DNA from: Rhizobium indicum
Lineage (GTDB): Bacteria > Pseudomonadota > Alphaproteobacteria > Rhizobiales > Rhizobiaceae
Direction of reading: 5' to 3'
Assembly: GCF_005862305.2 (NCBI RefSeq)
Contig: NZ_CP054022.1
Location: 62,001 to 126,000, forward strand
Length of the DNA: 64,000 nt
Both the position numbers and the translations under genes were made by a program. The notes beneath the pieces were generated by a model that did no database searches, was not told where the DNA came from, and was given only the letters and a program-made list of their open reading frames with translations. Positions 9,001-39,838 of the stretch are shown piece by piece. Positions within the stretch are counted from its first letter, which is position 1. The number at the start of each line of letters is the position of its first letter.

Positions 9001-9037
9001 AAAAAATGCCCGGGCGCAGCCGAAACTGCGCCCAGGC
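9001..9037 (-). terminator. Intrinsic terminator of katG
   Basis: On the minus strand a 12-bp stem (9037-9026 with 9019-9008, one G-U pair) with a 6-nt loop is followed by ATTTTTT (9007-9001). It starts 14 bp after the katG stop. This is the clearest Rho-independent terminator in the window. Confidence 0.9.
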
Positions 9038-9050
9038 AAAATGCTGCCGA

Positions 9051-11300
<2,250 letters not shown>

Positions 11301-11370
11301 CTACTCTCCCCTTGCAGTCTTCATATCGGAAGCATGTAATAAATTTAAGTTGGATTTACTGATCGGTGCG

Positions 11371-20067: not shown

Positions 20068-21366
20068 CTAGAGACGCTTGTAGGCCTCCAGCGCCGCATT
20101 GAAGGCGGCATTCAAGGCGTCTTCCGGCTTTTTGGTCCCCGAGAGCACGTCGCCCATCATGATCTGGATCTGGTTGGAGATTTCAGGATAGATCGGCACA
20201 CCCGGGCGTGCCTGTCCATCGACCAGAGCCGCGGCGAAGGTCTTGTTGGCTTCGGTGGAGAAGACCTCATATTTGTCGAACAGCGACTTCCTGGTCGGCA
20301 ACTGCTGCTGCAGCGCGTTTGCCGGCCCCATATAGACCTCGCGTGCGAGGTTGGCGCACATCTCGATCTTGTCCTTGTCCTTGCTGAAGGATGCGATCGT
20401 CCAGCCGCCGGTTCCGGTCGAACGCTCATCGGCGCTGGGGCCGGGGATCGGCGAGAAGGTCCAGTTGTTGAACTCGTCCTCGTCGAGCGTGGCCTTCAGC
20501 TGCGCATATTGCCAGTTGCCGCCGATGAAGAGCGCCGTCGTCGCCGCTGCCGCCGCGGCATTCATATCGTCGTAATTCGCGATCGTGCTGACGCGCTTGG
20601 GCGCGGCACCCGAATCGACGAGATCCTTGAAATAATTCAGCGCCTTTAGGAACTTCTCCTTGTTCTCGCCTTCGCCGAATACCGGCTTGCCTGAGTCGTC
20701 GACGAGCTTGCCGCCCAGCGCCCAATAATTCGCGAGCCAGTCGAACGTCGTCCCTTCCCAGCGCCCGCCGTTGAAGAGAACGCCTTCCATGCCTTCCTTG
20801 GTGGAGGCGAGCGCGGCCGTTTTCAGGTCGTCCCATGTCTGGGGCGCATCCGCAACGATCGACTTGTTGCGGTAGAGCACACGAAGGTCGGTATCCCACC
20901 ACCAGGCGCGGACCGTCTGATCCTTATCCGTGATGCCGCTGCGGATGAAGGGGAACAGGTCATCCACTTCCTCCTTCGAAAAATACGGCGTGAAGTCCGC
21001 AAGAACTTTATTGACCATGAACTGCGAAAGCACGAAGGAGTCGACGGCAGCGCAGTCAGGCGCGTTGCCGGCCTTGGCCTGCTCCAGCATCTTGGCCTGT
21101 TCGGTGCCGATGTCCGAGGACATGAATTGCATCTGCAATTTCCAGTCCGGATGCTTCTTGATGAAATCGACGAACAGCTTCTGATAGCCCTCGGCGATCG
21201 CCGGATCGGAATTGTTGGGACTATCGTTCGTCAGACGGACGACGAGGGATTTCGGCGCATCGGCAAGGCCGATCCTGTCCTTCGTGGCAAGTTCCTGGGC
21301 AAATGAAACGGATGCTGAAAATAACATGGTGCTCAGCGCAAATGCGCTGACGGTGGCGCTCTTCAT
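20068..21366 (-). CDS. Periplasmic sugar-binding protein of the CUT1 importer
   Basis: This 432-residue protein has a signal peptide (about 1-24, ending SVSFAQ). The mature part has the family-1 extracellular solute-binding pattern (TEQAKMLEQAKAGNAPDCAAVDSFV near the N-terminus, a GGWTIASFSKDK hinge segment, C-terminal IYPEISNQIQIMMGDVLSG). ATG at 21366 follows GGGGAGGAGACCCATC. It is the first gene of the operon and gives substrate specificity. The 31-bp element at 21443-21473 overlaps its likely promoter. It is divergent from a Gfo/Idh/MocA gene. Confidence 0.9.
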   Translation of the reverse strand: MKSATVSAFALSTMLFSASVSFAQELATKDRIGLADAPKSLVVRLTNDSPNNSDPAIAEGYQKLFVDFIKKHPDWKLQMQFMSSDIGTEQAKMLEQAKAGNAPDCAAVDSFVLSQFMVNKVLADFTPYFSKEEVDDLFPFIRSGITDKDQTVRAWWWDTDLRVLYRNKSIVADAPQTWDDLKTAALASTKEGMEGVLFNGGRWEGTTFDWLANYWALGGKLVDDSGKPVFGEGENKEKFLKALNYFKDLVDSGAAPKRVSTIANYDDMNAAAAAATTALFIGGNWQYAQLKATLDEDEFNNWTFSPIPGPSADERSTGTGGWTIASFSKDKDKIEMCANLAREVYMGPANALQQQLPTRKSLFDKYEVFSTEANKTFAAALVDGQARPGVPIYPEISNQIQIMMGDVLSGTKKPEDALNAAFNAALEAYKRL

Positions 21367-21736
21367 GATGGGTCTCCTCCCCATTTTGAACGGATACAGC
21401 CTGGCGGTCAGTTGACCTCTCCTCATTTCCGTGCTGCATTAATTAGATTAAGTTACTTTGATTTGATGTCAAGCCACAGCTTGGAAGGCCAGACCCGGGA
21501 GGTTGAGATGCTGGCGACAATCAACAGCAGCTAGCGCACAGTTCCGGAAAATCGAGATCGATTTCCGGAAAAGAACATGCGCCGTGAAAGTGATGGAGCG
21601 TCCCGCGGCACGCGCGGCGCATCCACCGCAATTTTCCTGAAGAAGAGCACGAGGCAATCGCGGATGGCTGCGATGGCGCGAGTGTGGTTTTGCCCGGCTG
21701 AACTGCGGCGGGGAAGTTAATTCCATGGAGGATAAG
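21367..21736. promoter_or_regulatory. Divergent promoter region between the sugar importer and the dehydrogenase
   Basis: This 370-bp non-coding region contains the 31-bp element described separately. The rest (21480-21720) is ordinary GC-rich sequence with no supported ORF. No clear second operator was seen near the Gfo/Idh/MocA start. Confidence 0.5.
21443..21473 (-). promoter_or_regulatory. 31-bp promoter/operator element, copy 1
   Basis: Read toward the solute-binding-protein gene (minus strand), it begins CTTGACATCAAATCAAAG and ends with TAACTTAATCTAA. It contains a -35 like TTGACA, a -10 like TAATCT at 16-bp spacing, and the palindromic core AAGTAACTT. Copy 2 at 33264-33294, upstream of the alpha-mannosidase gene, matches at 28 of 31 positions in the same orientation relative to its gene. 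It is probably a promoter overlapped by one operator. Confidence 0.65.
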
Positions 21737-24483: not shown

Positions 24484-26208
24484 TCATCTCGCGGCAGCAC
24501 AGCAGCGTTTCGCATCCCTCTCCAGCACCCGCGTTGAAGCGGACGATGAGATTTCCAGGTAATCGGGGTTGATATTCGCGTAGCCGCGACGGGTTCCACA
24601 AACAGTTCCGCCATCGGCGAAAATCTCGATGATTCCGCAATCATGAAACAGACGAAGGTCCTTTCCGTCGGCAAGCTCCGCCACGTAATGGATCGAGCCG
24701 TCGTCCTGGGCGAGCCGGATCGAGAGAATACCGCCAGCGACGCCCACCTCGAAGGCAAGTTCGCCGCCCTGCGTCGCAACGGCCTTGCTGCCTTCCAGGG
24801 CTCCGGAAAGGCGGATTTCAATGGGAGCCATTGGTAGCGAGAATTTGCCGCTTTGTTCCTCGACGATAGGGGCAGCGGCAAAGTGATCGTCGACTTCGAT
24901 CGTCGGCAGCATGCGCAGCCTCTTCCTGTCTTCACTCAAACTTAGAACACGCGGTAGGGACATCTCCCCGGAATAGGCAGAGCCCTCAGGCTTGCGATAT
25001 TCCCAATTGAAGAGCCAGGCAAAGGCGATCTGGCGCCCTCCCGCTTCGAAACTCTGCATCGCGTAATAATCGGTGCCGAAATCCAGCAATTGCAGTTCCG
25101 GCACGTCGGGTACGAAGCAGTCGTCGATAAACTCGCCGATCATGGCATAAAGGAGATTGTGGCGCCGTGTTCGTGGCTCGACATGGCCAACAAAACCCAT
25201 CACCAGAACCCACTTTTCCTCCAGCCGAAAGAAATCCGGGCATTCCACCGCACGCGCGCCTTCTTGGCGGAAATTAACCGGCGCACGGTAGAGCGGCCTG
25301 AGATATTGCCAATCGAGGCCATCGCCGGAGCCGAACAACAACACCGCGGGATCACCTTCGATCGATGCGCCGAGTATCATGCGATAGGCGTTGGCTGTGT
25401 CATCCCACCAAACTTTTGGATCGCGGAAGTCGTGCTCGACACCGTCGGGACGCTCTTCCAACACCGTCACAATGCCTTCCGCCTTGATCATCAGCCGATC
25501 TGGCCGCGCTATTTTCTGAATTTCCCGATAGCCCTTGAAAAGGTCATAGGCAGGCAGGCGCTCGGTGTAAAAGAACATCAAACTTCCATCTCGATCCCGA
25601 AAGGCATTGCCGGAGAATGCGCCTCCTGTAGCGCCGAGACGCCACAGGTTCTGTTCTGGATGCAGAAATACCGGCATGTGACGCCAATTGACCAGATCGC
25701 GGCTGGTCGCATGTCCCCAGTGCATCGGTCCCCAATCACTGCCGCTCGGATGGAATTGATAGAAAAGGTGCCATAACTCGTCGATCTTGCAGAGACCTAC
25801 GGGGTCGTTCATCCAATGCCGGATTGGCGAGAAATGAAGCGCAGGACGATCCGGATCGGACCGAAGCCAATCTTCAATTTCCGCGCCGGTGCGTTGAAGG
25901 ATCCCTTTTTGCGAGAATTCAAACACTGTTATACCGGTCTCGTTCACGGTTTGAGGCTGATATCCATAGGCCCACAGAACAGCGTCCGGCGCATTGGTGA
26001 CAATGGTGACCTCGCACGCTTCCCTGTGGTGATATTTGAAAAACTCCGGATGGATGGCAAATGACCGAACCTGCCAAACCGTTTTCCCGTCAATGTCGAT
26101 ACGAAAAAAGCCGTCGCCCGCGGCCCAAAATTCCAAGTGATACCCCGAGGGTAGGAACAGGTTTTGCTGCATCAACGGGTCATCTTCCCGATCCATTTGG
26201 TTCGCCAT
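24484..26208 (-). CDS. GH32 beta-fructosidase (levanase/inulinase-like), no signal peptide
   Basis: This 574-residue enzyme has the three GH32 acidic motifs: nucleophile Asp135 in HWMNDPVG, Asp263 in FRDPKVWW (transition-state stabiliser) and acid/base Glu322 in ECPDFF. WGPMHWGHATSRDLVNW is also typical. The first motif is WMNDPVG where most members have WMNDPNG. About 125 residues precede the five-bladed propeller, longer than usual. There is no signal peptide, so it should act in the cytoplasm on imported fructosides, releasing fructose. It is the last gene of the fructan ABC cassette, 56 bp after GH91. ATG at 26208 follows CGGAG. Confidence 0.9.
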   Translation of the reverse strand: MANQMDREDDPLMQQNLFLPSGYHLEFWAAGDGFFRIDIDGKTVWQVRSFAIHPEFFKYHHREACEVTIVTNAPDAVLWAYGYQPQTVNETGITVFEFSQKGILQRTGAEIEDWLRSDPDRPALHFSPIRHWMNDPVGLCKIDELWHLFYQFHPSGSDWGPMHWGHATSRDLVNWRHMPVFLHPEQNLWRLGATGGAFSGNAFRDRDGSLMFFYTERLPAYDLFKGYREIQKIARPDRLMIKAEGIVTVLEERPDGVEHDFRDPKVWWDDTANAYRMILGASIEGDPAVLLFGSGDGLDWQYLRPLYRAPVNFRQEGARAVECPDFFRLEEKWVLVMGFVGHVEPRTRRHNLLYAMIGEFIDDCFVPDVPELQLLDFGTDYYAMQSFEAGGRQIAFAWLFNWEYRKPEGSAYSGEMSLPRVLSLSEDRKRLRMLPTIEVDDHFAAAPIVEEQSGKFSLPMAPIEIRLSGALEGSKAVATQGGELAFEVGVAGGILSIRLAQDDGSIHYVAELADGKDLRLFHDCGIIEIFADGGTVCGTRRGYANINPDYLEISSSASTRVLERDAKRCCAAAR

Positions 26209-26264
26209 GAACACAACTCCGAATAGTCACTGGATTTTCGGCCGACGGCCTAGCTATGCTCGGC

Positions 26265-27659
26265 CTAGTGAAACTCTGCCGACGATTGCCCAAGAACTGG
26301 AGTGCCCCTGAAAGCATTCACTGTTCTGTCCATCTCGACCTGATCGACACTGCCTGAATCCAGAACTGTATTCCGCAGCGAACCCCTTTGCACCAATACT
26401 GCCGTTACCTCGAGCGCCTTCAAATTGTCCGTTGAAAGCAATGCGCCCACTTGCGTTGAAAAACAGGCGCTGTTTGGTGCGTCGTTGATCTGCGAAATTT
26501 CGGTTGTGGCCACGATGTGATTATTGGCGATGTAGTTGCCGCTGCCGGAAACGACATTGATGATCACCGGCTTTGCGGCGAGAGGCTTGATATATTGAAT
26601 ATCGATCGTTTCTGAAATGTGGTTGGCGATTACCGAATTGTTGCTGCCATCAATGTGCAAAAGTCCGAACAGGTCATCCAGGCCGTTATCGTACCTCTGC
26701 ATGGGCGCCCACGGCTCGCGATCTCGCAGGAAGTGATTTGAGGAGACCAGGTTTTCGCAGCAATTCGCAGCAAAAACCAGCATTCCGGGATAGAAGGAAT
26801 GGAATCTGTTTCCTGTGATCGAGGAACGCACCACGCCGGAAAAATAGACGCTGCTGGCGCCTCGGGGGAAGACGTTGTTTGAAGAGACCAGGATGCCGCC
26901 GTAATTTTCAGCGTAGACGGAATGTCCCCTATATCCGGCTCCGACAAAATTATTCGCTATCCTCGAGGCCTGCCCCATACCTTTCAATTCGATACAGTTG
27001 CCGCACTCTGCAATGAAATTGTTGTCTATTGCCAGCGCATCCGCGTCATGAACAGTCACGCCATGTTCCAGATAGATAAGGCCCATCCCCGTTATTCGGA
27101 ATGAGTCATTGGCGCTGCCCACATAGATTCCCGTTTTGCCATTCCTGTAGGTATTTTCCGCATCATTCTGCCCCGAACCGTCGTCCATGAAGTGCAGGCC
27201 ATCGATGCAAAAATCGGCAAACTCCACAGAGCTTATGCGAGGATCGCCGGTGCGCTTGACGTAGAACGCGGCTCCGGCAGCCTCACCGTCGGCGGCGTCC
27301 GGAGACATGTCCACACATATGCGACTTCCGCCCGGCCACACTTCACGCCACTGTGCCAGTTCGTTTGCGGGTGTGTTGAAACGGATGCTCGAAGACGTAA
27401 AACCATGTCCCGAGCCGACAATCTTCAGATAGCTCAGGTCTATAACGACTTGGGTGGCAAGACGATAATCGCCTGGCGGAATATAGATCACCGCTCCAGG
27501 CTTCCCGCCGTCATTCTGGTCGCGAACCGCTTGCCTGCTCTTAATATCCGCAATGATGCTATTGATGACCGATCCAATGTCCTCTTGGGGGTTGCCTAAG
27601 GGATATTGTGTTACGTCGTAAAAGTTTTCACTTACCATTGCTAACGTCTCCTCGGCCAT
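26265..27659 (-). CDS. GH91 inulin fructotransferase / difructose-anhydride hydrolase family enzyme
   Basis: This 464-residue right-handed beta-helix protein matches the Arthrobacter/Bacillus inulin fructotransferases across its length: YDVTQYPLGNPQEDIGSVIN, GAVIYIPPGDYRL, SYLKIVGSGHGF, TGMGLIYLEHGV, ADALAIDNNFIAECGNCIEL, GLLHIDG. Asp207 and Glu218 have the same 11-residue spacing as the catalytic Asp233/Glu244 described for the Bacillus sp. snu-7 enzyme. Secreted family members cut inulin into difructose anhydride (DFA) III or I; a subgroup hydrolyses DFA III to inulobiose inside the cell. No signal peptide is present here, favouring the intracellular hydrolase role. It lies between an ABC importer and a GH32 gene. 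Confidence 0.88.
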   Translation of the reverse strand: MAEETLAMVSENFYDVTQYPLGNPQEDIGSVINSIIADIKSRQAVRDQNDGGKPGAVIYIPPGDYRLATQVVIDLSYLKIVGSGHGFTSSSIRFNTPANELAQWREVWPGGSRICVDMSPDAADGEAAGAAFYVKRTGDPRISSVEFADFCIDGLHFMDDGSGQNDAENTYRNGKTGIYVGSANDSFRITGMGLIYLEHGVTVHDADALAIDNNFIAECGNCIELKGMGQASRIANNFVGAGYRGHSVYAENYGGILVSSNNVFPRGASSVYFSGVVRSSITGNRFHSFYPGMLVFAANCCENLVSSNHFLRDREPWAPMQRYDNGLDDLFGLLHIDGSNNSVIANHISETIDIQYIKPLAAKPVIINVVSGSGNYIANNHIVATTEISQINDAPNSACFSTQVGALLSTDNLKALEVTAVLVQRGSLRNTVLDSGSVDQVEMDRTVNAFRGTPVLGQSSAEFH

Positions 27660-27779
27660 TTCCTACTCCACAGCGAGAGTAGACCGATGTTCTTGATTGG
27701 CTTGTCGTGCGAAAGCCGCCTGGGGTTATGCGTTCAACCGGCTTTCTTGTTCGAGTTTGGAGCAAAATCCTGCGCACCA

Positions 27780-28922
27780 TCACCAGATGCTGGTGCGGAT
27801 GTCCGGTTCAAAGAAATGGAGTTCGTCGGCATCGACAGCGATGCGCGCGATGTCACCTGCTCGGACTGTGCTCTTCGGAGAAAAGCGGGCTACAGCAGCC
27901 TTTTCGTTGCCGATGTCGGCGACGGCGTCCGGGTCGCCGGCATCCACACGGGTGGCGTCGATATTCAGATGCACCATGGATTCAGAACCTAGCGCCTCGA
28001 CAAGAGCGACCGGGGCCGAGATCTCGGCCGAAGAGGGCCGGATTGCGGCATCGTTCATATGCTCGGGCCGGATACCAACAATGACCTGACGGTTGGACGC
28101 GCCGTTGAGCGAGGGGCGGCCTTCAAAAACCTGGTCGGAGATTTCCAAGCTGTTGCTGCCCAGGGTCAGCGTCCTTCCATTCAGAACGGCCTCGTACAAA
28201 TTCATCGAAGGCGATCCGATAAAGGCGGCGACGAAGACATTGTCAGGACGATTGTACAGGTTTTGCGGTGTGTCGACTTGCTGCAGCACACCGCCTTTCA
28301 TGACAGCGACGCGGTCACCCATCGTCATCGCCTCGACTTGGTCGTGGGTCACGTAAATCGTCGTGACATTCAGTTTTCTCTGGAGGCTGGCGATCTCGGC
28401 GCGCATCTGCACGCGCAGCTTGGCATCGAGGTTCGACAACGGTTCATCCATCAGGAAGGCCGCTGGTTTGCGGACGATCGCCCGTCCCATGGCGACACGC
28501 TGACGCTGGCCTCCTGAAAGGAGTGCCGGCCTGCGGTCGAGCAAAGTCGTCAGTTCGAGGATGCGGGCTGCTTCGTCTACGCGGCTGGCAATCTCGGTCT
28601 TCGGCAGGCCTGCCATCAGCAATGGGAAGGCAATGTTCTCCCGCACGGTCTTGTGCGGGTAGAGCGCATAGGACTGAAAGACCATGGCGATGTCGCGATC
28701 CTTGGGATCGACATCGTTGACTAACCTGTCACCGATTTTGAGTTCACCGCTCGTAATGCTCTCCAGGCCGGCAATCATCCTGAGCGCCGTCGATTTCCCA
28801 CATCCGGACGGGCCGACGAACACCATGAACTCGCCATCCCTGATGTCGAAGCTCAGATCGTGCAGAGCGTGAAAGCTGTTTCCGTAGACCTTGTTGATAT
28901 TGCGCAGTTCTATGCCGGCCAT
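27780..28922 (-). CDS. Fructan-cassette ABC importer ATPase (UgpC/MsmK type)
   Basis: This 380-residue ATPase has Walker A (GPSGCGKST), Q-loop (FQSYALYPHKTV), signature (LSGGQRQRVAMGRAI), Walker B (FLMDEPLSNLDAKLR), switch His (YVTHDQVEAMT) and a C-terminal TOBE domain (VGIRPEHM). It lies 13 bp after the MalG-type permease and 120 bp before GH91. It should energise import of the substrate bound by the protein at 30.7-32.0 kb. Confidence 0.93.
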   Translation of the reverse strand: MAGIELRNINKVYGNSFHALHDLSFDIRDGEFMVFVGPSGCGKSTALRMIAGLESITSGELKIGDRLVNDVDPKDRDIAMVFQSYALYPHKTVRENIAFPLLMAGLPKTEIASRVDEAARILELTTLLDRRPALLSGGQRQRVAMGRAIVRKPAAFLMDEPLSNLDAKLRVQMRAEIASLQRKLNVTTIYVTHDQVEAMTMGDRVAVMKGGVLQQVDTPQNLYNRPDNVFVAAFIGSPSMNLYEAVLNGRTLTLGSNSLEISDQVFEGRPSLNGASNRQVIVGIRPEHMNDAAIRPSSAEISAPVALVEALGSESMVHLNIDATRVDAGDPDAVADIGNEKAAVARFSPKSTVRAGDIARIAVDADELHFFEPDIRTSIW

Positions 28923-28935
28923 GCCTTTGCCTCCC

Positions 28936-29772
28936 TCATCCCTTTACAGCGCCGAAAGTCAGGCCGCCGACGATCTGTTTTTGCAGTGCGAGCGTTACGA
29001 TGATGACCGGCAGCGAGTAGAGGACGGCTGCCGCGGTCATCGCCCCCCAGGCAAGCCCATAGACCGAATTGTATTCAGCGATGACGATCGGCGCCGTTTT
29101 GGTCGCCTCGGACGTCAGCAGCAGCGCGTAAAGAAACTCGTTCCAGCTTGTGATGAAGGTAAAGAGCGCGGTGACCGCTATTCCCCCTGTCATGACCGGA
29201 AGCACGATCTTTCGAAACGCCTGGAATCGTGTGCAGCCATCCATGCGCGCCGCTTCTTCGAGCTCCTTCGGTATGCCCTCGAAGAACGCGGACATGAGCA
29301 GCAGTGCCAGTGGTACCGCAGCCGACGTGTGAGCGAGCACCAGGCCTGGAATGGTATCGAGCAGACCCACAGACTTCAAAAGCTGGAACAGCGGCACTCC
29401 GAGCGCCACCGACGGCACCATGCGCGTCACCAGGGCGAAGAGCAGGAAAATGGTGGTGATCCGGCGCCGGTACTGCGTGGCGACGTAAGCGGCAGGCACT
29501 GCCACCGAAAGCGAGAGAGCCGTCGTCAGTACCGCGACGGTCAGGGAATTGACGAAGGCTCTCGGCAAAGTGGAGGATCGCAGCACTTCGCGGAAATTCT
29601 CGAACGAGACAACGGCGGGAAAGAAGCTTGGCGGGATCTGCTGCACATCAGCCGCCGGCTTGATGGAGGTCATGAGGAGATAGATGTAAGGCAGCGCGTA
29701 GGATAGCACCAACACGAGGGCTGCCGCGTTGATCAGGATTCCGCTGAGATTGAGGCGGGGAGCTCTACGCAT
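28936..29772 (-). CDS. Fructan-cassette ABC permease, MalG type
   Basis: This 278-residue, six-helix permease has the EAA loop EAARMDGCTRFQAFRKIVLPVMTGGI. It overlaps the upstream MalF-type gene by 8 bp. It belongs to the CUT1 importer of the cassette and ends 13 bp before the ATPase gene. Confidence 0.92.
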   Translation of the reverse strand: MRRAPRLNLSGILINAAALVLVLSYALPYIYLLMTSIKPAADVQQIPPSFFPAVVSFENFREVLRSSTLPRAFVNSLTVAVLTTALSLSVAVPAAYVATQYRRRITTIFLLFALVTRMVPSVALGVPLFQLLKSVGLLDTIPGLVLAHTSAAVPLALLLMSAFFEGIPKELEEAARMDGCTRFQAFRKIVLPVMTGGIAVTALFTFITSWNEFLYALLLTSEATKTAPIVIAEYNSVYGLAWGAMTAAAVLYSLPVIIVTLALQKQIVGGLTFGAVKG

Positions 29773-30646
29773 GGACCGGCCTCCATATCTTCCAATAGGC
29801 GACTGCCGCCAAAAGCATCATGACGATGAGGAACAATGTTCCTGACGCGGAAGCCTCGCCGAGATCGCCGAACCGAACCATGCGCTGGTAGATGTTCATC
29901 GAGAACACTTCGGAAGCATGACTGGGACCACCCTGCGTCTGTATCCAGATCAGGTCGAATGTCTTTGCAGCATCCACGCCTCGCACGATCACCACGACGG
30001 CGATCACCGGCCGCATGAGGGGAAGGGTGACATGCCAGAAGCGCTTGAGGGCATTCGCCCCGTCGATCCGCGCTGCCTCCAGCAGGTCTTTCGGGATGTT
30101 CGTCAGCCCGGCATAGGACACAAGGGCGACAAAGGAAGTCGTCAGCCAGATGTCGGCAAAGGAAACAGAATAGATGACGATATCTTCGCTGGACAACCAT
30201 GCGATTGCCTCTGGATCGCTAATCAGACCCAAACGGACGAGCCCGTAGTTCAGGATGCCGATATTGCCGACGAGCAGAAATCGCCAAAGTAGACCCGCGA
30301 CGATGGGCGGAACCATCAGCGGCAGAGCGAAGATCGTGCGATGCCACCGCGATTGACCGGCAAGCGCCGAAAAAAGCAGCGCCGCACAGAAACCGAACGT
30401 GAACTCGAAAAACAGCGCGAAGAGCGAATACTGAACGGTCCGCAGAGCGCTTTCCATGACACGTTTCGACGTCAAGGCATCGACATAGTTCTGCAGGCCG
30501 ACCCATTCGCGAATATGGGGCGTGATCGTATCGACCTTGAAAAAGGAATCGAATACCAGGAGCCCCACCGGGTAAGCGACCAGCACGCCGAGGATGGCGA
30601 CAGCAGGCGCGAGCATGCAAAGTACAAATCGGTCTTCACCCGACAT
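29765..30646 (-). CDS. Fructan-cassette ABC permease, MalF type
   Basis: This 293-residue permease has the EAA loop EAARIDGANALKRFWHVTLPLMRPVI and the TQGGPSHASEVFSMNIYQ segment typical of MalF/UgpA-type subunits. It lies downstream of the solute-binding-protein gene after a strong stem-loop and overlaps the MalG-type permease gene. Confidence 0.92.
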   Translation of the reverse strand: MSGEDRFVLCMLAPAVAILGVLVAYPVGLLVFDSFFKVDTITPHIREWVGLQNYVDALTSKRVMESALRTVQYSLFALFFEFTFGFCAALLFSALAGQSRWHRTIFALPLMVPPIVAGLLWRFLLVGNIGILNYGLVRLGLISDPEAIAWLSSEDIVIYSVSFADIWLTTSFVALVSYAGLTNIPKDLLEAARIDGANALKRFWHVTLPLMRPVIAVVVIVRGVDAAKTFDLIWIQTQGGPSHASEVFSMNIYQRMVRFGDLGEASASGTLFLIVMMLLAAVAYWKIWRPVHA

Positions 30647-30667
30647 GTCCGTCTCCGAAAGCTAAGA

Positions 30668-30688
30668 GTGGGGCATATTTTGCCCCAC
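30668..30688 (-). repeat. Intercistronic hairpin after the fructan-cassette solute-binding-protein gene
   Basis: GTGGGGCA (30668-30675) pairs perfectly with TGCCCCAC (30681-30688) around a 5-nt loop, 21 bp beyond the stop codon and before the permease. It has the position of an mRNA-stabilising or partial-terminator hairpin. Confidence 0.6.
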
Positions 30689-30709
30689 GATGTGGAGGAA
30701 TGTACGAGG

Positions 30710-31969
30710 CTAGTTGAGAATGTCCTCGATCGTTTCCTTGGCTTCCGTCAGGACCTCCCCGATATCTGCCTTGCAGGTGAGTGCCTGCTGGATAGCGGGC
30801 AGCACAGCTTCATCGACTATTTCCTGATATTTTTCATTGATCGGCCGGCCCTGGGTGGCGGGCGCGCTCAGCGTCTCAAGAAGTGGGGGGAAGTGCTCAT
30901 AGCCGGCCTTGGCTGAATAGCTCCGATAGGCGGAATTCGTCGCGGCAAGGCCGAGGGGAGCTTCGATACCCAGGGTATTATTGGCGATAGCAAACGATAT
31001 GAATTTTTTCGCTGCATCCTTGTGCTCGGATGTCGAGGGAACGACGTTGTACCAAGGGCCGGGAACAGCTGCGATCCCGGCATCGCCGGCCAGCATCGGC
31101 ACCACGCCGACCTTGCCGCTGACCTTTGAATCCGGAGGCGTCATCTTGTAGGCGTGCGCCCAGAACTTCATCATGGCTGTTTTGCCCTGGTAGAACAGGT
31201 TCTGCGCCTCGCCCCAGCCGATTTCGTTCACATTTTCAGGAACGGAATGATCAACACAGTGTGGCGCGATGTAGAATTCAAGTGCCTTTTTGTGCGCCTC
31301 ATTGTCGATAATGACCTGCCCGTCCTTATCGAGGATCACCCCTGGCGAACCCGCCTGCAGCACATGCGCCATCCATTCCTCTGAAAACGTGCCGATGGTG
31401 TCAGTGCCCCAGAAGTCGGTCTTTCCATCGCCGTCAGTGTCACGCGTGAAGAATTTGGCGATGTCACGCCACTGCTGCCAGGTTTTGGGCGGCGCGAGAG
31501 GATAGCCATACTTGGCCTGAAAAGCCTCTTTTTCCTCAGCCTTATCAAACAGATCCTTGCGATAGAACACGATCTCGGCATTGGCCCAGGCAGGCATGCC
31601 GATCAGTTTGTCACCGACCTTCGCATCGGCAAGCAAGACAGGCGGCAGATCCGCGCGAACCGCATCGGTGAAAAGAGCCGAGAGATCCTCGACGTGGCTC
31701 GCGAATTTCGCATTCCACACGACGTCGATCGTCACGACATCGAACGCAGAAGAGCCTGAGGCGATTTCGGCCGAGAACTTGTCAAAGACACCCTGATAGG
31801 GAACGGTCGTGAAGTTCACCTCGATGCCTGTTTCGGCAGTAAACTTCTCGGCGACCGCCTTCTGCAACATTTCGCCGCCGCCTTCCACCAGAATGTTGAT
31901 GGCTTCGGCATTGGCAGTGGCGGCTATGAAAACAAGCGCAAGTGCGCTGGCACCAAGCAATTTCTTCAT
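30710..31969 (-). CDS. Periplasmic sugar-binding protein of the fructan cassette
   Basis: This 419-residue family-1 solute-binding protein has a signal peptide (KKLLGASALALVFIAATANA then EA). The N-terminal FTAETGIEVNFTTVPYQGVFDKFSAEIASGSSAFDVVTIDV and internal AWANAEIVFYRKDLFD are typical of CUT1 binding proteins. ATG at 31969 follows GGGAGGAATCA. It is the first gene of the operon leading to GH91 and GH32. The promoter region carries three LacI-type operators. Likely ligand: a difructose anhydride or short fructo-oligosaccharide, by context. Confidence 0.9.
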   Translation of the reverse strand: MKKLLGASALALVFIAATANAEAINILVEGGGEMLQKAVAEKFTAETGIEVNFTTVPYQGVFDKFSAEIASGSSAFDVVTIDVVWNAKFASHVEDLSALFTDAVRADLPPVLLADAKVGDKLIGMPAWANAEIVFYRKDLFDKAEEKEAFQAKYGYPLAPPKTWQQWRDIAKFFTRDTDGDGKTDFWGTDTIGTFSEEWMAHVLQAGSPGVILDKDGQVIIDNEAHKKALEFYIAPHCVDHSVPENVNEIGWGEAQNLFYQGKTAMMKFWAHAYKMTPPDSKVSGKVGVVPMLAGDAGIAAVPGPWYNVVPSTSEHKDAAKKFISFAIANNTLGIEAPLGLAATNSAYRSYSAKAGYEHFPPLLETLSAPATQGRPINEKYQEIVDEAVLPAIQQALTCKADIGEVLTEAKETIEDILN

Positions 31970-32038
31970 TGATTCCTCCCATTTGGCTCGCTGCACTTGC
32001 ACTGAGCCCTCCTTCTTGCTGCGAAGGTAGTCCTCGTA

Positions 32039-32052
32039 TGACGACGTTGTCA
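32039..32052. promoter_or_regulatory. LacI-type operator O1
   Basis: TGACGACGTTGTCA, a near-palindrome (12 of 14 positions symmetric). First of three sites at exact 22-bp spacing in the divergent region between the fructan importer and the LacI gene. Confidence 0.7.
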
Positions 32053-32060
32053 ATATGGAA

Positions 32061-32074
32061 TGACGACGTTGTCA
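32061..32074. promoter_or_regulatory. LacI-type operator O2
   Basis: TGACGACGTTGTCA, identical to O1 and starting 22 bp further on. Confidence 0.7.
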
Positions 32075-32082
32075 GAAAAATA

Positions 32083-32096
32083 TGTCGACGTTGTCA
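32083..32096. promoter_or_regulatory. LacI-type operator O3
   Basis: TGTCGACGTTGTCA, one base different from O1/O2 and again 22 bp further on, 43 bp before the LacI start codon. Suits cooperative repression of both divergent promoters and autoregulation. Confidence 0.68.
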
Positions 32097-32139
32097 TGCG
32101 TCTGGTTTAAAACGAATCCGGGCAAGGAGATTGGCGTAG

Positions 32140-33159
32140 ATGGTGAGCATAGTCAGCGTCGCGAAAGTGGCGGGAGTTTCCAACAAAACTGTGTCTCGCG
32201 TCATTAACGGCGAACCATATGTGACCGAGGAAACGAGAGAGAGGGTCGAAAGGGCAATCCGGGACCTCGGATATGTGCCCAATATGGCCGCGCGCCAAAT
32301 ACGCTCAAGTCGCTCCAACACATTTGGCATCATCGCTGACTACGTGTCGACGACGCCTTATTCAGTGGATATCGTTCGCGGGATCCAGGATTGGGCCAAC
32401 GCCAACGGCAAGACCATTCTGATGGCAAACACCGGCGGCGCATCCGAGCAGGAAATTAAAATTTGGAAAATGTTCCAATCGCACCGCATTGACGGTGTTC
32501 TCTACGTAACGATGTACCATCGCATCGTTGACCCCGAAATCGGCGACGTCGGCATCCCCACAGTCATGATCAACTGCCGACCAAAAACGAGCGAATTGTT
32601 GCCGTCGATCGAACCCGATGACTACCAGGGCGCTCAGGATCTCACACGCTATCTGCTTGAGCGGGGGCATCGAAAGATCGGCTATATCCGGCTCAATCCC
32701 ATTTTGCTTGGTGCGGAACTGCGCCTCGATGCTTTCCGCAAAACCACCGGAGACTTTGGCCTTGCGGAGAACGACCTCACTATCCGCCTTGGCATGGAAG
32801 GACCGGTAGGAGCAGAGAAGAACTACGTTTTTGCTTCCGCCACCGAGATGCTTCAACAAAAGGATCGACCGACCGCAATCATGAGCGGCAACGACGAAAT
32901 GGCGATCCAAATCTACATCGCGGCCATGGCATTGGGTCTTCGGATTCCCGAGGATGTCAGTATTGTCGGCTTTGACGATTTCCGGACGGTTTCCCTGGCG
33001 CTGAGGCCGGAGCTGACCACTGCCGCTTTGCCATATTACGATCTCGGTCTGCAAGGGGCGGAATTGTTGAATAGCGTGGTGGCGGGAAGCGAAGTTTGCC
33101 CGACCAGTCGAGTTATGTCCTGCAATTTGGTGGAGCGACTTTCGGTGCGCTCCCTGTAA
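32140..33159 (+). CDS. LacI-family repressor of the fructan cassette
   Basis: This 339-residue protein has an N-terminal LacI HTH (VSIVSVAKVAGVSNKTVSRVIN) and hinge helix region (NMAARQIRSS), followed by a periplasmic-binding-protein-like effector domain (NTFGIIADYV, IMSGNDEMAIQIYIAAMALGLRIPEDVSIVGFDD). AAGGAG lies 10 nt before the ATG. It is divergent from the fructan ABC operon with three operators between. The expected inducer is a fructan-derived sugar. Base composition is lower in GC than the mannosidase that follows. Confidence 0.93.
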   Translation: MVSIVSVAKVAGVSNKTVSRVINGEPYVTEETRERVERAIRDLGYVPNMAARQIRSSRSNTFGIIADYVSTTPYSVDIVRGIQDWANANGKTILMANTGGASEQEIKIWKMFQSHRIDGVLYVTMYHRIVDPEIGDVGIPTVMINCRPKTSELLPSIEPDDYQGAQDLTRYLLERGHRKIGYIRLNPILLGAELRLDAFRKTTGDFGLAENDLTIRLGMEGPVGAEKNYVFASATEMLQQKDRPTAIMSGNDEMAIQIYIAAMALGLRIPEDVSIVGFDDFRTVSLALRPELTTAALPYYDLGLQGAELLNSVVAGSEVCPTSRVMSCNLVERLSVRSL

Positions 33160-33439: not shown

Positions 33440-36400
33440 ATGCCTCTGACCATTGCCCAGCGCCTCGATCGTCTCAAAGTTCGCATTGCCGAGTTGGCGC
33501 ATTGGCGAGATCGACAAAGTGTTGCGATCGACGGCTGGACGTTCGAGGGCGAGCCGATTGGCCATCACCAGGGTTGGCCGCACCGCCAGGGGGTGGTGCA
33601 TTTTGCCGCGACCGCTGAAGCGCCGGAGGCGTGGCCTCTCGGCGATATTCGCCTGCAGCTCGACCTCGGCGGCGAGAGCCTGATTACGCTCAGCTACCCC
33701 GACGGCGAGACGGAAACATTCGGTCTCGATCCCTACCATCAGGAATTCCCGCTGAAGGGCCGCCGCTTTTCGATCGCAACGGAAACCGTCGCCCGGTTTC
33801 CATTCGGCGAGCCCAATCGCGCTCCACGGCTCAACAAGGCCCGATTTATCTGGCTCGATGGTCCAGCTCACCGCCTGCATCTTCTGTTAAAGCAGGTTGC
33901 CGAGGCAATCGATGTGCTGGGCGAGCATGAAGTCGTGCCGCACCTGATGGATGCCGCCGAGCACTCGTTGCGCAGTCTCGACTGGCCGTCGGATACGGCG
34001 GCCTATGTCTCCCGCACATCAAGCGCTGTCATGCAGCAGAAAATCTGGGAACTGCCGGAGCTCGAGGCTAATCCGGCAGGCCTTACGGAGGAGCAGAGCG
34101 CTTCGGCAGCCACAGCCTTCGAGGCTCTGACGGCGAAGTTGAAGGAGCTGCAGAAGCGCTTCCCGCCGAATGGAGAATTGCTGCTGACGGGCCATGCGCA
34201 TATCGATCTCGCCTGGCTTTGGCCCTATCGCGAGACGCGGCGGAAAATGCGGCGCACCTTCAATACGGCGCTGTCATTGATGGAGCGCTCCGACGATTTC
34301 CGCTTCAATCAATCGACCGCCCATTATTACGCGCAGATGGAAGAGGAAGACCCGGAGCTTCTCGATCGCATCAAGCAGAAGGTCGCGGAAGGAAAGTGGG
34401 AAACCGTCGGCGGCATGTGGGTGGAGCCCGACACGAACATGCCGACCGGCGAAAGTCTCGCCCGTCAGGTTCTCTATGGCCAGCGTTATTTCGAAAAGAC
34501 CTTCGGCACGCGCCATACGGTCTGCTGGCTGCCCGATTGCTTTGGCTTTTCAGGCGCGCTGCCGCAAATCTTGAGGCAGGGCGGCATCGACAGCTTCTTC
34601 ACGATCAAGGTCAATTGGAGCGAGACCAACCATATTCCATCCGATCTCTTCTGGTGGAAGGGTCTCGACGGCAGCCGGGTGCTGACCCACACGTTCGACA
34701 ATCCGATGCAGGGTTATAACGGCTTCGTGCAAGCCGATTGCTACGTGCCGACATGGAAGAATTTCCGCGGCAAGACACAGCACGATACCTCGCTGCTGGC
34801 CGTCGGATATGGCGACGGCGGCGGCGGCGTCACGCCCGAGATGGTCGAGCGCGAGGTGCAGCTGCGCGATTTCCCGGCGATCCCGCAGGCACGCTGGGGC
34901 ACCGTCAAAAGCTATTACGAACAGGCGCACCGCACCGCAGGCGAAAAGAACCTTCCGGTATGGGATGGCGAAATCTATCTCGAACTGCACCGCGCCACGC
35001 TGACGTCGCAAAGCGGCGTCAAGCGCAAGCATCGCCAGGCCGAACGCGCGCTGATCACCGCCGAAACCATCGCTTCGCTGGCGCATATGCTCGGAGCAGA
35101 CAGGCCCCGAAGCCTCGAAGCGGATTGGCGCGTGGTGCTGAAGAACGAATTTCACGACATTCTGCCGGGCTCGAGCATCCGTGAAGTTTATCAGGATGCC
35201 GAGCAGGAACTGGGCGGCGTCATCGAACGTGCTGGAACCGAACAGGCAAATGCCTTGCAAGCGCTGTCGGCCAAGCTGCCGAAAGGCGGGGTTGGCGATG
35301 CCCTCGTCGTCGTCAATCCGTCTCTTGCGGCCAGACAGCTCAGCGCAACGCTCTCCGACGGCACGGTCGTCGCGGCCGCCGATCTCGTCGCCCCCTTGTC
35401 CGTCACGGTCTTCGACAAGGGCTCGCTCAAGCCGGCGGGCGGGCTGAAGGCAGGCCCCGAGCGTCTCGAAAACGAGCACCTCTCGGTCTCCATCGGCAGG
35501 GACGGGGCGGTTTCGAGCCTCCTTCACAAGGCAACGGGCCGGGAAGCGGTCGACGGCTCGGCAAATCAGCTCTGGGTCTATCCGGCCGACAAGCCGCGCA
35601 ACTGGGACGCCTGGGACATCGATGCGGATTATGCCGAAAAGGCCGTCCGCCTCGATACGCCTGATAGTATCACCCTCGTTGAAGACGGCCCGCACCGCGC
35701 GGCGATCCGCGTCGTTTACCGCTACCGGAATTCGAGCGTCACGCAGACCTATGTGCTGACGGCCAACGCCAGGCGGCTCGACATCGAAACGACGATCGAC
35801 TGGCATGATCGCCGCACGCTGCTGCGAACCCTGAACCCGGTCGCCGCGCAGGCCCGCAAGGCGACCTTCGAATGCGCCTTCGGCATCGTCGAACGGGCAA
35901 CGCACACGAATACGTCCTGGGAGCAGGCGATGTTCGAGGCCGTCGCGCACCGCTTCGTCGATATCAGCGAGCCGGATTTCGGGGTCGCGCTGCTCAACAA
36001 TGCCAAATACGGCCATAGCGCCCGCGGCAATGTGATCGGCATGAGCCTCGTACGCGGGCCGATCTATCCGGATCCGTTGGCCGACGAAGGGGAGCAGAGC
36101 TTCACCTATGCACTGATGCCGCATGAAGGCGCCTGGCATGAAGGCGGCGTTCTCGACGAGGCGATCGATCTCAATCAGCCGCTCGTCTCGGCTCAATTCA
36201 GCGGCCTCTCCGCCGGCATTTTTGCGCCGCTTGCGGTCACCGGCATCCCTGTCGCGTTCTCAGGCCTGAAGCCGGCGGAAGAGGGCGACGGCCTCATCCT
36301 GCGCCTTTACGAACCGGCCGGCCGGCGCGGCAGGCTCGCCCTCAACTTGCCTTCCGGATGGGCAGCATCGCAGCCGCTGAACATTCTCGAAGAGCCGATG

Positions 36401-36466
36401 GAGCGGAAGGGACCTGCCGACATCATGCCGTTCGAAGTCAGGACCTGGAAGCTGCAGAATGGCTGA
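33440..36466 (+). CDS. GH38 alpha-mannosidase
   Basis: This 1008-residue enzyme has about 245 N-terminal residues and then the GH38 catalytic domain: Zn-binding His254 and Asp256 in GHAHIDLAWLWPYRET, and nucleophile Asp366 in VCWLPDCFGFSGALPQ. NEFHDILPGSSI is the conserved late motif. The C-terminal half is the beta-sandwich typical of retaining alpha-mannosidases. There is no signal peptide, so it should act in the cytoplasm on imported mannosides. The gene is preceded by the 31-bp element shared with the first sugar ABC operon. It ends against a TetR gene. Confidence 0.95.
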   Translation: MPLTIAQRLDRLKVRIAELAHWRDRQSVAIDGWTFEGEPIGHHQGWPHRQGVVHFAATAEAPEAWPLGDIRLQLDLGGESLITLSYPDGETETFGLDPYHQEFPLKGRRFSIATETVARFPFGEPNRAPRLNKARFIWLDGPAHRLHLLLKQVAEAIDVLGEHEVVPHLMDAAEHSLRSLDWPSDTAAYVSRTSSAVMQQKIWELPELEANPAGLTEEQSASAATAFEALTAKLKELQKRFPPNGELLLTGHAHIDLAWLWPYRETRRKMRRTFNTALSLMERSDDFRFNQSTAHYYAQMEEEDPELLDRIKQKVAEGKWETVGGMWVEPDTNMPTGESLARQVLYGQRYFEKTFGTRHTVCWLPDCFGFSGALPQILRQGGIDSFFTIKVNWSETNHIPSDLFWWKGLDGSRVLTHTFDNPMQGYNGFVQADCYVPTWKNFRGKTQHDTSLLAVGYGDGGGGVTPEMVEREVQLRDFPAIPQARWGTVKSYYEQAHRTAGEKNLPVWDGEIYLELHRATLTSQSGVKRKHRQAERALITAETIASLAHMLGADRPRSLEADWRVVLKNEFHDILPGSSIREVYQDAEQELGGVIERAGTEQANALQALSAKLPKGGVGDALVVVNPSLAARQLSATLSDGTVVAAADLVAPLSVTVFDKGSLKPAGGLKAGPERLENEHLSVSIGRDGAVSSLLHKATGREAVDGSANQLWVYPADKPRNWDAWDIDADYAEKAVRLDTPDSITLVEDGPHRAAIRVVYRYRNSSVTQTYVLTANARRLDIETTIDWHDRRTLLRTLNPVAAQARKATFECAFGIVERATHTNTSWEQAMFEAVAHRFVDISEPDFGVALLNNAKYGHSARGNVIGMSLVRGPIYPDPLADEGEQSFTYALMPHEGAWHEGGVLDEAIDLNQPLVSAQFSGLSAGIFAPLAVTGIPVAFSGLKPAEEGDGLILRLYEPAGRRGRLALNLPSGWAASQPLNILEEPMERKGPADIMPFEVRTWKLQNG

Positions 36467-37375: not shown

Positions 37376-39838
37376 ATGATCGATTCCATTCTCGACAAGA
37401 TGACGCTCGAGGAGCAGGTCTCCCTGCTATCAGGCGCCGATTTCTGGACGACGGTTCCCGTCGAGCGTCTTGATGTGCCGAAGATCAAGGTGACGGACGG
37501 ACCGAATGGCGCCCGCGGCGCGGGTTCGCTGGTCGGCGGCGTCAAGGCGACCTGCTTTCCTGTCGCCATCGCGCTCGGCGCCACCTGGAATCCCGATCTC
37601 GTCGAGCGCATGGGTGTGGCGCTTGCCTGCCAGGCGAAGAGCAAGGGGGCCGCGGTGCTGCTCGCGCCCACGGTGAATATTCATCGTTCCGGGCTCAACG
37701 GGCGAAATTTCGAATGTTATTCCGAGGATCCGATGCTGACCGCGGAACTGGCCGTCGCCTATATCAAGGGCGTGCAGAGCCAGGGGATCGCCGCGACGAT
37801 CAAGCACTTCGCCGGCAACGAATCCGAGATCGAGCGGCAGACCATGTCTTCCGATATCGACGAGCGGACGCTGCGCGAAATCTACCTTCCCCCCTTCGAA
37901 CAGGCTGTCAGGCGCGCCGGCGTGATGGCCGTCATGTCCTCCTATAACCGCCTCAACGGCACCTATACGAGCGAGCATGAGTGGCTGCTGACCAAGGTGC
38001 TGCGCGAGGAATGGGGATTCGACGGGATCGTCATGTCCGACTGGTTTGGTTCGCATTCGACGGCCGAGACGATCAATGCCGGTCTTGATCTCGAAATGCC
38101 CGGCCCGGCGCGCGATCGCGGCGAGAAGCTGGTTGCGGCCGTGCGCGAGGGCAGGGTCGAAGCGGCAACGGTGCGGGCGGCGGCGCGGCGGATCCTGCTG
38201 CTGCTCGAGCGGGTCGGTGCCTTCGAGAAGAGGCCCGACCTCACCGAGCGGGCAGTCGACCTGCCGGAAGACCGGGCGCTGATCCGGCGTCTCGGCTCAG
38301 AGGGAGCAGTCCTTTTGAAGAACGACGGCATCCTGCCGCTTGCCAAGACGTCGCTCGACCGGATCGCCGTCATCGGACCCAACGCCGCGAGCGCGCGTGT
38401 GATGGGCGGCGGCAGCGCGCAGATCGCGGCGCATTACACGGTCAGCCCGCTCGAAGGGATTCGAGCCGCCCTTTCCAATGCCAACAGCGTCAGCCACGCC
38501 GTCGGCTGCCGCCACAACCGTCTGATCGAGGTGGCCAAGGGAAAGATCACCGTCGAATATTTCAAGGGGCGTGGTTGCCAGGGCACTCCGCTTCATGTCG
38601 AAACCGTCGACAAGGGTGAGTTCTTCTGGTTCGAGCTGCCGTCGGCCGAGCTCGACCCAACCGATTTCTCGGCACGGATGACGATGCAATTCGTGCCGGA
38701 GGAGAGCGGCGATCATGTCTTCGGCATGACCAATGCTGGACTGGCGCGGCTCTTCGTCGACGGCAGGCTCACGGTCGACGGCCATGATGGCTGGACACGC
38801 GGCGAGAATTATTTCGGCACCGCCAATGACGAACAGCGCGGCACGGTGGCACTCGATGCGGGCAAGGCCCATGCCGTCACCGTCGAGTATGATCCGCCGG
38901 CGGCATCAGGGGAGGGGATCAACCTCACGGCCATTCGGTTCGGCGTCGAAAAGCCCTTGGGCGAGGCCGATATGCAGGACGCCGTCGAGACGGCGCTGAA
39001 TGCCGATGTGGCGATTCTCTTCGTCGGCCGCGACGGCGAATGGGATACCGAAGGCTTGGACCTGCCCGACATGCGGCTTCCGGGTCGGCAGGAGGAACTG
39101 ATCGAGCGGGTCGCGGCGGTCAACACCAACACCGTCGTCGTGCTGCAGACCGGCGGCCCGGTGGAAATGCCCTGGCTCGGCAAGGTTCGCGCCGTGCTGC
39201 AGATCTGGTATCCCGGGCAGGCGCTGGGCAATGCCGTCGCCGATGTCCTGTTCGGCGATGTCGAGCCCGGTGGGCGCCTGCCGCAGACATTTCCGAAGGC
39301 GCTTGCCGACAACTCCGCGATAACAGGTGATCCAGCCGTCTATCCGGGTAAGGATGGGCATGTGCGCTATGCCGAAGGCGTGTTCGTCGGCTATCGTCAT
39401 CACGATACGCGCGCTGTCGAACCGCTCTTCCCCTTCGGTTTCGGCCTTGGCTATACACGCTTCAGCTGGGGCGAGGCGCGGCTCTCAGCAAGCGAAATGG
39501 GTGCCGAAGGCGTGACGATCAGCGTCGATCTGACCAATATCGGCGACCGGGCCGGATCGGAACTGGTCCAGCTCTATGTGCGCTCGCCAAAGTCCAAGGT
39601 GGAGCGGCCGGACAAGGAACTGCGGGCCTTCGCAAAGCTTTCGCTGCGATCCGGTGAGACGGGCACAGCCGAGCTGAAGATCCTGCCCCGCGATCTCGCT
39701 TATTTCGACGTCGAGTCCGGTGCCTTCCGCGCCGAACCGGGCGATTACCAGCTGATCGTGGCCGCCAATGCCGCGGATATCAGGTTCATCATCGAACTGC
39801 CGTCACCATTCGACTACGTGCTGCCACCTTCGTATTAA
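37376..39838 (+). CDS. GH3 beta-glucosidase with PA14 insert
   Basis: This 820-residue enzyme has an N-terminal TIM-barrel with LGATWNPDLVERMG, IKHFAGNESEIERQ and nucleophile Asp222 in DGIVMSDWFGSHS. An alpha/beta sandwich follows, interrupted by a PA14-type domain (about 395-535, HVFGMTNAGLARLFVDGRLTVD), and a C-terminal fibronectin-III-like domain (FSWGEARLS..., GSELVQLYV). This is the layout of beta-glucosidases/xylosidases of the KmBglI type. No signal peptide, so probably cytoplasmic. AGGGGAGG lies just before the ATG. Regulated by the divergent TetR protein, by context. Confidence 0.94.
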   Translation: MIDSILDKMTLEEQVSLLSGADFWTTVPVERLDVPKIKVTDGPNGARGAGSLVGGVKATCFPVAIALGATWNPDLVERMGVALACQAKSKGAAVLLAPTVNIHRSGLNGRNFECYSEDPMLTAELAVAYIKGVQSQGIAATIKHFAGNESEIERQTMSSDIDERTLREIYLPPFEQAVRRAGVMAVMSSYNRLNGTYTSEHEWLLTKVLREEWGFDGIVMSDWFGSHSTAETINAGLDLEMPGPARDRGEKLVAAVREGRVEAATVRAAARRILLLLERVGAFEKRPDLTERAVDLPEDRALIRRLGSEGAVLLKNDGILPLAKTSLDRIAVIGPNAASARVMGGGSAQIAAHYTVSPLEGIRAALSNANSVSHAVGCRHNRLIEVAKGKITVEYFKGRGCQGTPLHVETVDKGEFFWFELPSAELDPTDFSARMTMQFVPEESGDHVFGMTNAGLARLFVDGRLTVDGHDGWTRGENYFGTANDEQRGTVALDAGKAHAVTVEYDPPAASGEGINLTAIRFGVEKPLGEADMQDAVETALNADVAILFVGRDGEWDTEGLDLPDMRLPGRQEELIERVAAVNTNTVVVLQTGGPVEMPWLGKVRAVLQIWYPGQALGNAVADVLFGDVEPGGRLPQTFPKALADNSAITGDPAVYPGKDGHVRYAEGVFVGYRHHDTRAVEPLFPFGFGLGYTRFSWGEARLSASEMGAEGVTISVDLTNIGDRAGSELVQLYVRSPKSKVERPDKELRAFAKLSLRSGETGTAELKILPRDLAYFDVESGAFRAEPGDYQLIVAANAADIRFIIELPSPFDYVLPPSY

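Follow-up and report, generated by a model that had tools for sequence, protein, structure and literature searches.

Soil and gut bacteria have already revealed the chemistry by which DFA III is utilized. In Blautia, a published cluster comprises a GH91 DFA-IIIase, a GH32 enzyme, and an ABC transporter through which import has been proposed, and the DFA-IIIase of Arthrobacter is described as intracellular (both in the covered sections of PMC11538131). Compared by description, the 80 loci whose context we studied including none from Blautia, the locus of Rhizobium indicum analyzed here resembles that cluster in its two-enzyme pathway, its proposed ABC import, and a GH91 enzyme of the DFA-IIIase subfamily, but differs in its own UgpC-type ATPase, divergent LacI gene, and triple operator, and in being plasmid-borne in many relatives; whereas certain Blautia strains have a sugar-kinase or a GH39 gene, and the covered sections of that article describe no LacI operator array (PMC11538131).

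The solved Arthrobacter DFA-IIIase (PDB 5zks, 5zku, 5zla) is about 62% identical to the Rhizobium GH91 protein and shares with it a lid, a lid cysteine, and the catalytic Asp and Glu; Arthrobacter sp. StoSoilB13, however, carries a further GH91, without a lid, at a distance of about 4 kb, whereas the only GH91 match in our genome is at this locus. The enterobacterial clusters (E. coli strain 53, a Citrobacter plasmid, Pectobacterium, and Klebsiella) likewise contain a lidded GH91, some of them with a LacI regulator and a GH32 43–44% identical to that of R. indicum; but where R. indicum has the ABC importer those clusters have a GPH/MFS symporter, together with a different LacI and, in some instances, an added porin and kinase. 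Finally, the GH172 alpha-fructofuranosidase of Bifidobacterium dentium also involves a difructose dianhydride, yet both the enzyme family and the anhydride, DFA I, are different (covered part of PMC8605356). The GH172-type domain PF11175 gave no match in our genome, nor any in the 14 control genomes, so that its absence from our genome carries no weight.

Against this background, we consider it highly probable that the locus serves, on a Rhizobium megaplasmid, as an operon for DFA III catabolism induced by its substrate, carrying out import, ring opening, and a GH32 finishing step. An earlier note on this DNA had held such an operon to be new in a rhizobium: its kind was already known, since a GH91–GH32–ABC cluster had been published for Blautia (covered sections of PMC11538131), but as far as we searched the system is new in rhizobia, for among the matches listed from the open-licence literature (titles and abstract openings) we found no rhizobial DFA system, repressor, or operators. 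The covered part of an article consulted on DFA III in the rhizosphere of a fructan plant does not mention 'DFA III' (PMC4835578). What we add is the dedicated operator array, the assignment of the structure 3MIZ, the mislabelling of the enzyme as NosD, and, in some relatives, a second, lidless GH91 in the regulon.

The window—the whole stretch of 64,000 nucleotides analyzed—contains the locus at positions 24484–33159, with six genes in one direction on the minus strand in the order solute-binding protein (SBP), permease, permease, ATPase, GH91, and GH32, and with lacI divergent on the plus strand, exactly the arrangement described in the earlier note. The features are the following:

32140..33159, plus strand: divergent LacI-family repressor, ortholog of PDB 3MIZ (LacI profile; 3miz, E 3e-164)
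32082..32097, minus strand: predicted operator copy 1, ATGACAACGTCGACAT (pattern match)
32060..32075, minus strand: predicted operator copy 2, CTGACAACGTCGTCAT (pattern match)
32038..32053, minus strand: predicted operator copy 3, TTGACAACGTCGTCAT, with a −35-like TTGACA inside (pattern match)
30710..31969, minus strand: SBP of a sugar ABC importer, with a signal peptide and start ATG at 31969 (SBP_bac_1, E 3.6e-34)
30668..30688, minus strand: GC-rich stem-loop between the SBP and permease genes (pattern match only)
29765..30646, minus strand: ABC permease 1, UgpA/MalF type (BPD_transp_1, Pfam/NCBIfam)
28936..29772, minus strand: ABC permease 2, UgpE/MalG type (BPD_transp_1, Pfam/NCBIfam)
27780..28922, minus strand: ABC ATPase, UgpC/MalK subfamily (NF008653, 469.7 bits versus a cut-off of 432)
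26265..27659, minus strand: predicted cytoplasmic GH91 DFA III hydrolase, or DFA-IIIase (PDB match, clade, lid, residues, fold match)
24484..26214, minus strand: GH32 beta-fructofuranosidase, with an N-terminal beta-rich domain at about residues 14–110 (GH32N)

The ATG at 31969 is a likelier start for the SBP gene than the TTG at 32053 that would lengthen it, because that TTG lies inside the third operator, GGGAGG precedes the ATG, and the annotated orthologs in R. leguminosarum 248 and R. etli CFN42 measure 1260 bp. The stem-loop might possibly serve as a point of mRNA processing or attenuation. The locus is on a contig of 1.13 Mb (C2; C1 being of 5.03 Mb) in a genome of 7.5 Mb and six contigs; and since its closest GH91 relatives, those of the R. 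leguminosarum complex, are in many instances plasmid-borne, we took that contig to be a megaplasmid.

The assignment of the enzyme to GH91 came from a search of PDB sequences and not from Pfam: the protein matched the Arthrobacter DFA-IIIase 5zks over nearly its full length with an E value of 2.1e-188, as against 4.8e-105 for the DFA-III-forming inulin fructotransferase (IFTase) 9j4i and 3.4e-79 for 8hsn, a DFA-I-forming lyase according to the entry title. The AlphaFold model (mean pLDDT 76) had as its first fold match 5zla, the C387A mutant of the DFA-IIIase with DFA-III (TMq 0.87, 62% identity), while the first IFTase, 2inu, came at rank 23 with 42% identity. The protein has a lid of 34 residues at 384–417, modelled with low confidence as a helix at 399–408, as against 29 residues in 5zks and a 4-residue loop in 2inu and 9j4i; the lid cysteine, C399, is absent from those two IFTases, and at position 287 the window enzyme has His where both have Gln. 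Residues D207 and E218, moreover, are invariant in our alignment, and would be the catalytic Asp and Glu, numbered D207/E218 in the A. aurescens DFA-IIIase and D233/E244 in the Bacillus IFTase (covered part of PMC4640833), the equivalence having been drawn via 2inu with an offset of 40 and not from an A. aurescens sequence. By its sequence, then, the window protein is a DFA III hydrolase, and the strong homology argues that it would open the DFA III ring to inulobiose in the cytoplasm. On a simple hydropathy scale, used in place of a signal-peptide program, the N-terminus of the GH91 protein reached a maximum of 0.75 versus 2.25 for the leader of the SBP; and a hydrophobic leader, present on the SBP, was absent from both the GH91 and the GH32 proteins, which bears out the earlier statement that neither of them has a signal peptide.

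The pathway that we propose would begin with DFA III formed outside the cell, either by the inulin fructotransferases of other organisms or by heating, and our strain, with its single GH91 match, would, if the pathway works, be a scavenger dependent on DFA III made elsewhere. The sugar would enter through the SBP-dependent ABC importer, of which all the components—the SBP, the two permeases, and the UgpC/MalK ATPase—are present, and which set we take to be of the CUT1 type. The nearest solved relatives of the SBP are generic sugar binders, the best being a maltose-binding protein (1.5e-26), so that homology does not fix its ligand. After ring opening by the leaderless GH91, the GH32 enzyme, whose N-terminal GH32 domain contains WMNDP, RDP, and EC—presumably the functional GH32 motifs—would cut the inulobiose into two fructoses and so draw the reversible GH91 reaction forward, as the biochemistry of the Blautia enzymes suggests. 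This sequence of import, intracellular ring opening, and GH32 cleavage had been put forward in the earlier note, and the phylogeny, the lid, the active-site residues, the leaders, and the synteny speak in its favor. As to a fructokinase, our genome gave seven PfkB-type matches at 26–32% identity, to none of which we assigned this role, and a second kinase query, run without a positive control, gave no match.

The substrate would likely be DFA III. The alternative of DFA I, also entertained in the earlier note, is unlikely by analogy, in that the Blautia DFA-IIIase failed to hydrolyze DFA I ('data not shown' in the covered part of PMC11538131); that same enzyme does split GF3, GF4, and inulin (likewise in the covered part of PMC11538131), so that short inulin-type oligosaccharides could be cosubstrates. 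This breadth of action also lends some weight to a different reading, in which the importer would mainly take up short inulin-type fructo-oligosaccharides (FOS), the GH91 and GH32 enzymes would shorten them in the cytoplasm, and DFA III would be a side substrate or an intermediate. Our genome contains one further GH32, in an operon that we read by eye as LacI–ABC–GH32 without a GH91, so that such pairs occur without a cyclic substrate; and in some relatives a lidless second GH91 stands beside the lidded one. For linear FOS, however, a GH32 alone should suffice, and a lidded GH91 makes the most sense with a cyclic substrate; that second GH32–ABC operon, moreover, could already serve for sucrose or FOS, while the pairing of the enteric lidded GH91 with a GPH/MFS symporter would suit a disaccharide better than FOS. 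We therefore regard uptake mainly of FOS as improbable, and uptake of DFA III as the preferred reading.

The identity of the enzyme was further examined in an alignment of 95 rows, consisting of 87 window-type locus rows (the window included), 5zks, the two IFTases, and five lidless locus rows. A lid of 29–43 residues and H287 were found in all 87 window-type rows and in 5zks, and the lid cysteine in 86 of the 87, the exception being that of Latilactobacillus (L009); among the lidless rows, position 287 was Ala in four and His in one, that of Arthrobacter L008, for which reason H287 alone does not prove a DFA-IIIase. In a tree built from this alignment by a quick method without bootstrap, seven short loci (L092–L098) and two duplicate contigs (L016, L017) having been left out beforehand, and with one DFA-IIIase, two IFTases, and no DFA-I-forming enzyme as the characterized members, the 88 lidded rows, 5zks among them, were split from the two IFTases with an SH-aLRT of 100, which value was 99 when the lid columns (window positions 380–422) were removed. 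This phylogeny, which the earlier note had recommended, placed the window protein with the DFA-IIIase. An activity as a fructotransferase producing DFA III from inulin, suggested by the membership in the family and by one record (H82) that names a Rhizobium copy 'fructotransferase', is accordingly most unlikely, and we rejected it on account of that clade, of the lid and lid cysteine that the solved IFTases lack, of the His in place of their Gln at 287, and of the missing leader. Of quite negligible probability is the notion of most public annotations and record names, that of a beta-helix protein either of the NosD copper type or similar to pectate lyases: Pfam does give only NosD/Beta_helix, with NosD above its cut-off at 1.5e-07 and Beta_helix_2 'of Inulin fructotransferase' below its own, but the sequence contradicts it through the nearly full-length DFA-IIIase match and an NCBIfam NosD score of 19.4, far below the cut-off of 300, and the operon context is one of sugar uptake.

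The region that separates lacI from the SBP gene contains three imperfect palindromes of 16 bp with a period of 22 bp. The operator pattern had six matches in the window (the three sites on both strands), all within this array, versus 0.44 expected. When we compared 30 intergenic regions between a divergent lacI and an SBP gene, with LacI proteins more than 55% identical, all 30 (the window included) had two to three copies conserved at 11 or more of the 16 positions, the spacing in the relatives being 21–22 bp; and in two Sinorhizobium loci (L018, L019) in which lacI is turned round, two copies precede lacI and another two the SBP gene. Among 148 genomes of the genus, the paired array was present in 28 of the 29 bearing a GH91 and in none of the 119 without one (Fisher p 2e-29, shared ancestry being ignored), while a reversed control pattern matched none of the 148. 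The sole GH91-bearing genome without the array (G138; by its coordinates the R. sullae contig of L014) has neither an SBP nor the cassette permeases at the locus concerned; and in Martelella (L032) the array precedes a GH91 that adjoins a different ABC set. Computation in this manner shows both that the array of sites exists and that it is coupled to the operon.

The LacI protein, composed of a LacI helix-turn-helix and a sugar-binding domain, would bind the three operators, two helical turns apart, over the operon promoter; the sugar that releases it would probably be DFA III, inulobiose, or one related to them. The overlap of the operator with the −35-like motif is a weak indication, since the operon promoter was missed by a sigma-70 scan (one site versus 5.4 expected). 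Over residues 50–339, 3miz, which represents the LacI ligand domain, and the R. etli CFN42 ortholog of this repressor are the same; 3MIZ, an unassigned LacI structure of which the searched open-licence literature contains no mention, would therefore probably have its role in this operon. With the array, LacI induction by DFA III or inulobiose could be tested cleanly on one operon, and both the repressor structure and the gene that most of the listed rhizobial plasmid records call 'NosD' acquire a testable function. At one mismatch or less, the operator had 24 matches in the whole genome (both strands, the array included) and the reversed control four. As candidates for a wider regulon we discarded the sole exact match outside the array (C2:736835, in an ORF read by eye as an ABC ATPase) and two near-matches (C1:2008999, in an ORF read as a short-chain dehydrogenase, and C3:390433, in an ORF of 695 amino acids), which look like chance occurrences since all three lie inside ORFs.

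Counting our own genome in every instance, the GH91 enzyme was found in 29 of the 148 genomes sampled from the genus, in 8 of 297 from the family, in 4 of 297 from the order (one being a marginal match of 24%), and in 1 of 398 from the phylum, namely our own. Among 72,556 plasmid records, 84 encoded it, of which 69 were from Rhizobium and one was a weak, partial match of 31%; in 45 of the 60 plasmid records among the matches listed, the name given was 'NosD domain-containing protein'. DNA similarity located the gene in 7 of 5,426 E. coli genomes, and a tblastn search of 50,697 phage records produced no GH91 match. We would predict from these figures that some rhizobia can use a cyclic fructose disaccharide supplied by other organisms, a niche that would often be carried on plasmids.

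The scan of species genomes gave 307 GH91-encoding stretches, of which the best 80 entered the context study, the other 227 remaining outside. Eighteen query proteins (E 1e-15, coverage at least 35%) served as the panel for recording the genes next to GH91 in 78 loci, the two duplicate contigs, both of one genome, being discounted. Within 9 kb, the SBP and two permeases were present in 55 of these 78, while a GPH/MFS symporter was near GH91 in 15, all of them enteric; four had permeases only, and four neither type of transporter. With three GH32 queries, a GH32 was detected within 9 kb in 58 of the 78, the 20 loci lacking it being ten enteric ones, seven with an ABC set of the Bacillus/Paenibacillus type, L032, L064, and L067; the panel, though, may miss divergent GH32s, and several loci end at contig edges. 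The order of genes was colinear in 26 loci—21 from genomes, four from plasmids, and the window, with both GH91 types lumped—of which 25, belonging to Rhizobium, Sinorhizobium, Agrobacterium, Devosia, and Maritimibacter, have the lidded GH91 in the slot and the remaining one, of Pleomorphomonas (L046), the lidless type; this recurrence argues that the gene order is not due to chance. In one Mesorhizobium (L043) and two Devosia (L044, L051) loci the order was the same, with no ATPase detected by the panel. Relatives outside the cassette genera keep the GH91, often with a GH32, and in the enterics and Latilactobacillus other transporters lie beside it. The flanks of the cassette differ among R. 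leguminosarum 248, R. etli CFN42, and the Agrobacterium pAt, which variation is in keeping with a cassette mobile among plasmids.

The GH32 slot was less conserved than the rest, so that the specificity of this enzyme may vary. In 21 of 25 cassette loci—all except those of Devosia, Pleomorphomonas, and Maritimibacter—the transporter genes and GH91 were 83–100% identical to the window, as against 45–97% to the best query for the GH32, whose identity was 45–74% in 18 of the 25. The three lowest GH32s (45–46%) matched an enteric query best, and one, L015, was 48% identical to the window GH32. To judge from these identities, some lineages have probably replaced their GH32.

The lidless GH91 proteins with Ala at position 287 constitute a second, leaderless class; the residue there is His in the lidded DFA-IIIases and Gln in the two solved IFTases. 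We advance only tentatively, as less than an even chance, that DFA III is not the only sugar with which the regulon deals, the lidless GH91 being a cytoplasmic enzyme of an undescribed activity; if this were so, its substrate may be, for example, a different difructose dianhydride or inulo-oligosaccharides taken up by the cell, and the whole would be a modular system under LacI control, serving for fructan pieces both cyclic and linear. In Agrobacterium the lidless GH91 lies inside the operon, next to the lidded enzyme, and in the Pleomorphomonas locus the lidded one lies further downstream of the slot. In two Rhizobium species (G040 and G053; by their coordinates, loci L021 and L023), an extra operator array precedes a lidless GH91 a few kb away.

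The GH32 gene of the DFA operon was conserved far below the level of its neighbouring genes (in the compared GH91 loci L005, L015, L022 and L024, among others), as if, to judge from sequence conservation, this gene had been swapped out in some lineages. The GH32 protein of the window (24484-26214) contains a beta-rich N-terminal stretch at about residues 14-110, which stretch is also present in the GH32 proteins of two further loci (L100:8166-9872 and L010:12802-14529) and is lacking in the short GH32 of Latilactobacillus.

A second GH91, which lacks both a lid and a leader and has Ala at position 287, was found in four loci, in which it lies within or adjoins the DFA operon:

L006:11532-12737, second GH91
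L046 (Pleomorphomonas), second GH91 within the ABC operon
L021 and L023 (both Rhizobium), second GH91 upstream of lacI

In L021 and L023 this gene is accompanied by a separate copy of the operator array—the repeated 16-bp imperfect palindromes that are putative LacI-repressor sites—of its own.

In the GH91 of L009, from a plasmid of Latilactobacillus sakei, the lid Cys is replaced by Ala, the only such case among the lidded rows of the alignment. The same locus groups a GH32, a fructokinase and a mannose-type PTS with the GH91, and sigma-54 factors adjoin it. For R. sullae (L014), the solute-binding-protein and permease genes of the cassette were not found upstream of the ATPase within the 10 kb covered upstream of the GH91; nor was the operator array found in G138, the sampled genome that, by its coordinates, contains the same contig.

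Two further glycosidase genes follow lacI in the window:

33440-36466, GH38 alpha-mannosidase
37376-39838, GH3 with a PA14 domain

The GH38 gene also adjoins lacI in R. leguminosarum 248 but does not lie beside it in R. etli CFN42, and is therefore probably unrelated to the DFA operon. Neither the 777-aa ORF at 9006-11339 nor the 452-aa ORF at 20068-21426 had a Pfam match at 0.001; in R. leguminosarum 248 an ABC binding protein is annotated at the place of the latter, which, judged by position, seems to encode the same protein.

The R. etli CFN42 ortholog of the operon repressor (window 32140-33159) matched the LacI-family structure PDB 3MIZ without a difference over residues 50-339. As to the public records, the GH91 gene is named "NosD domain-containing protein" in 45 of the 60 plasmid records among the matches listed (e.g., NZ_CP048281.1 and NC_007765.1), and "fructotransferase" in one of those 60.
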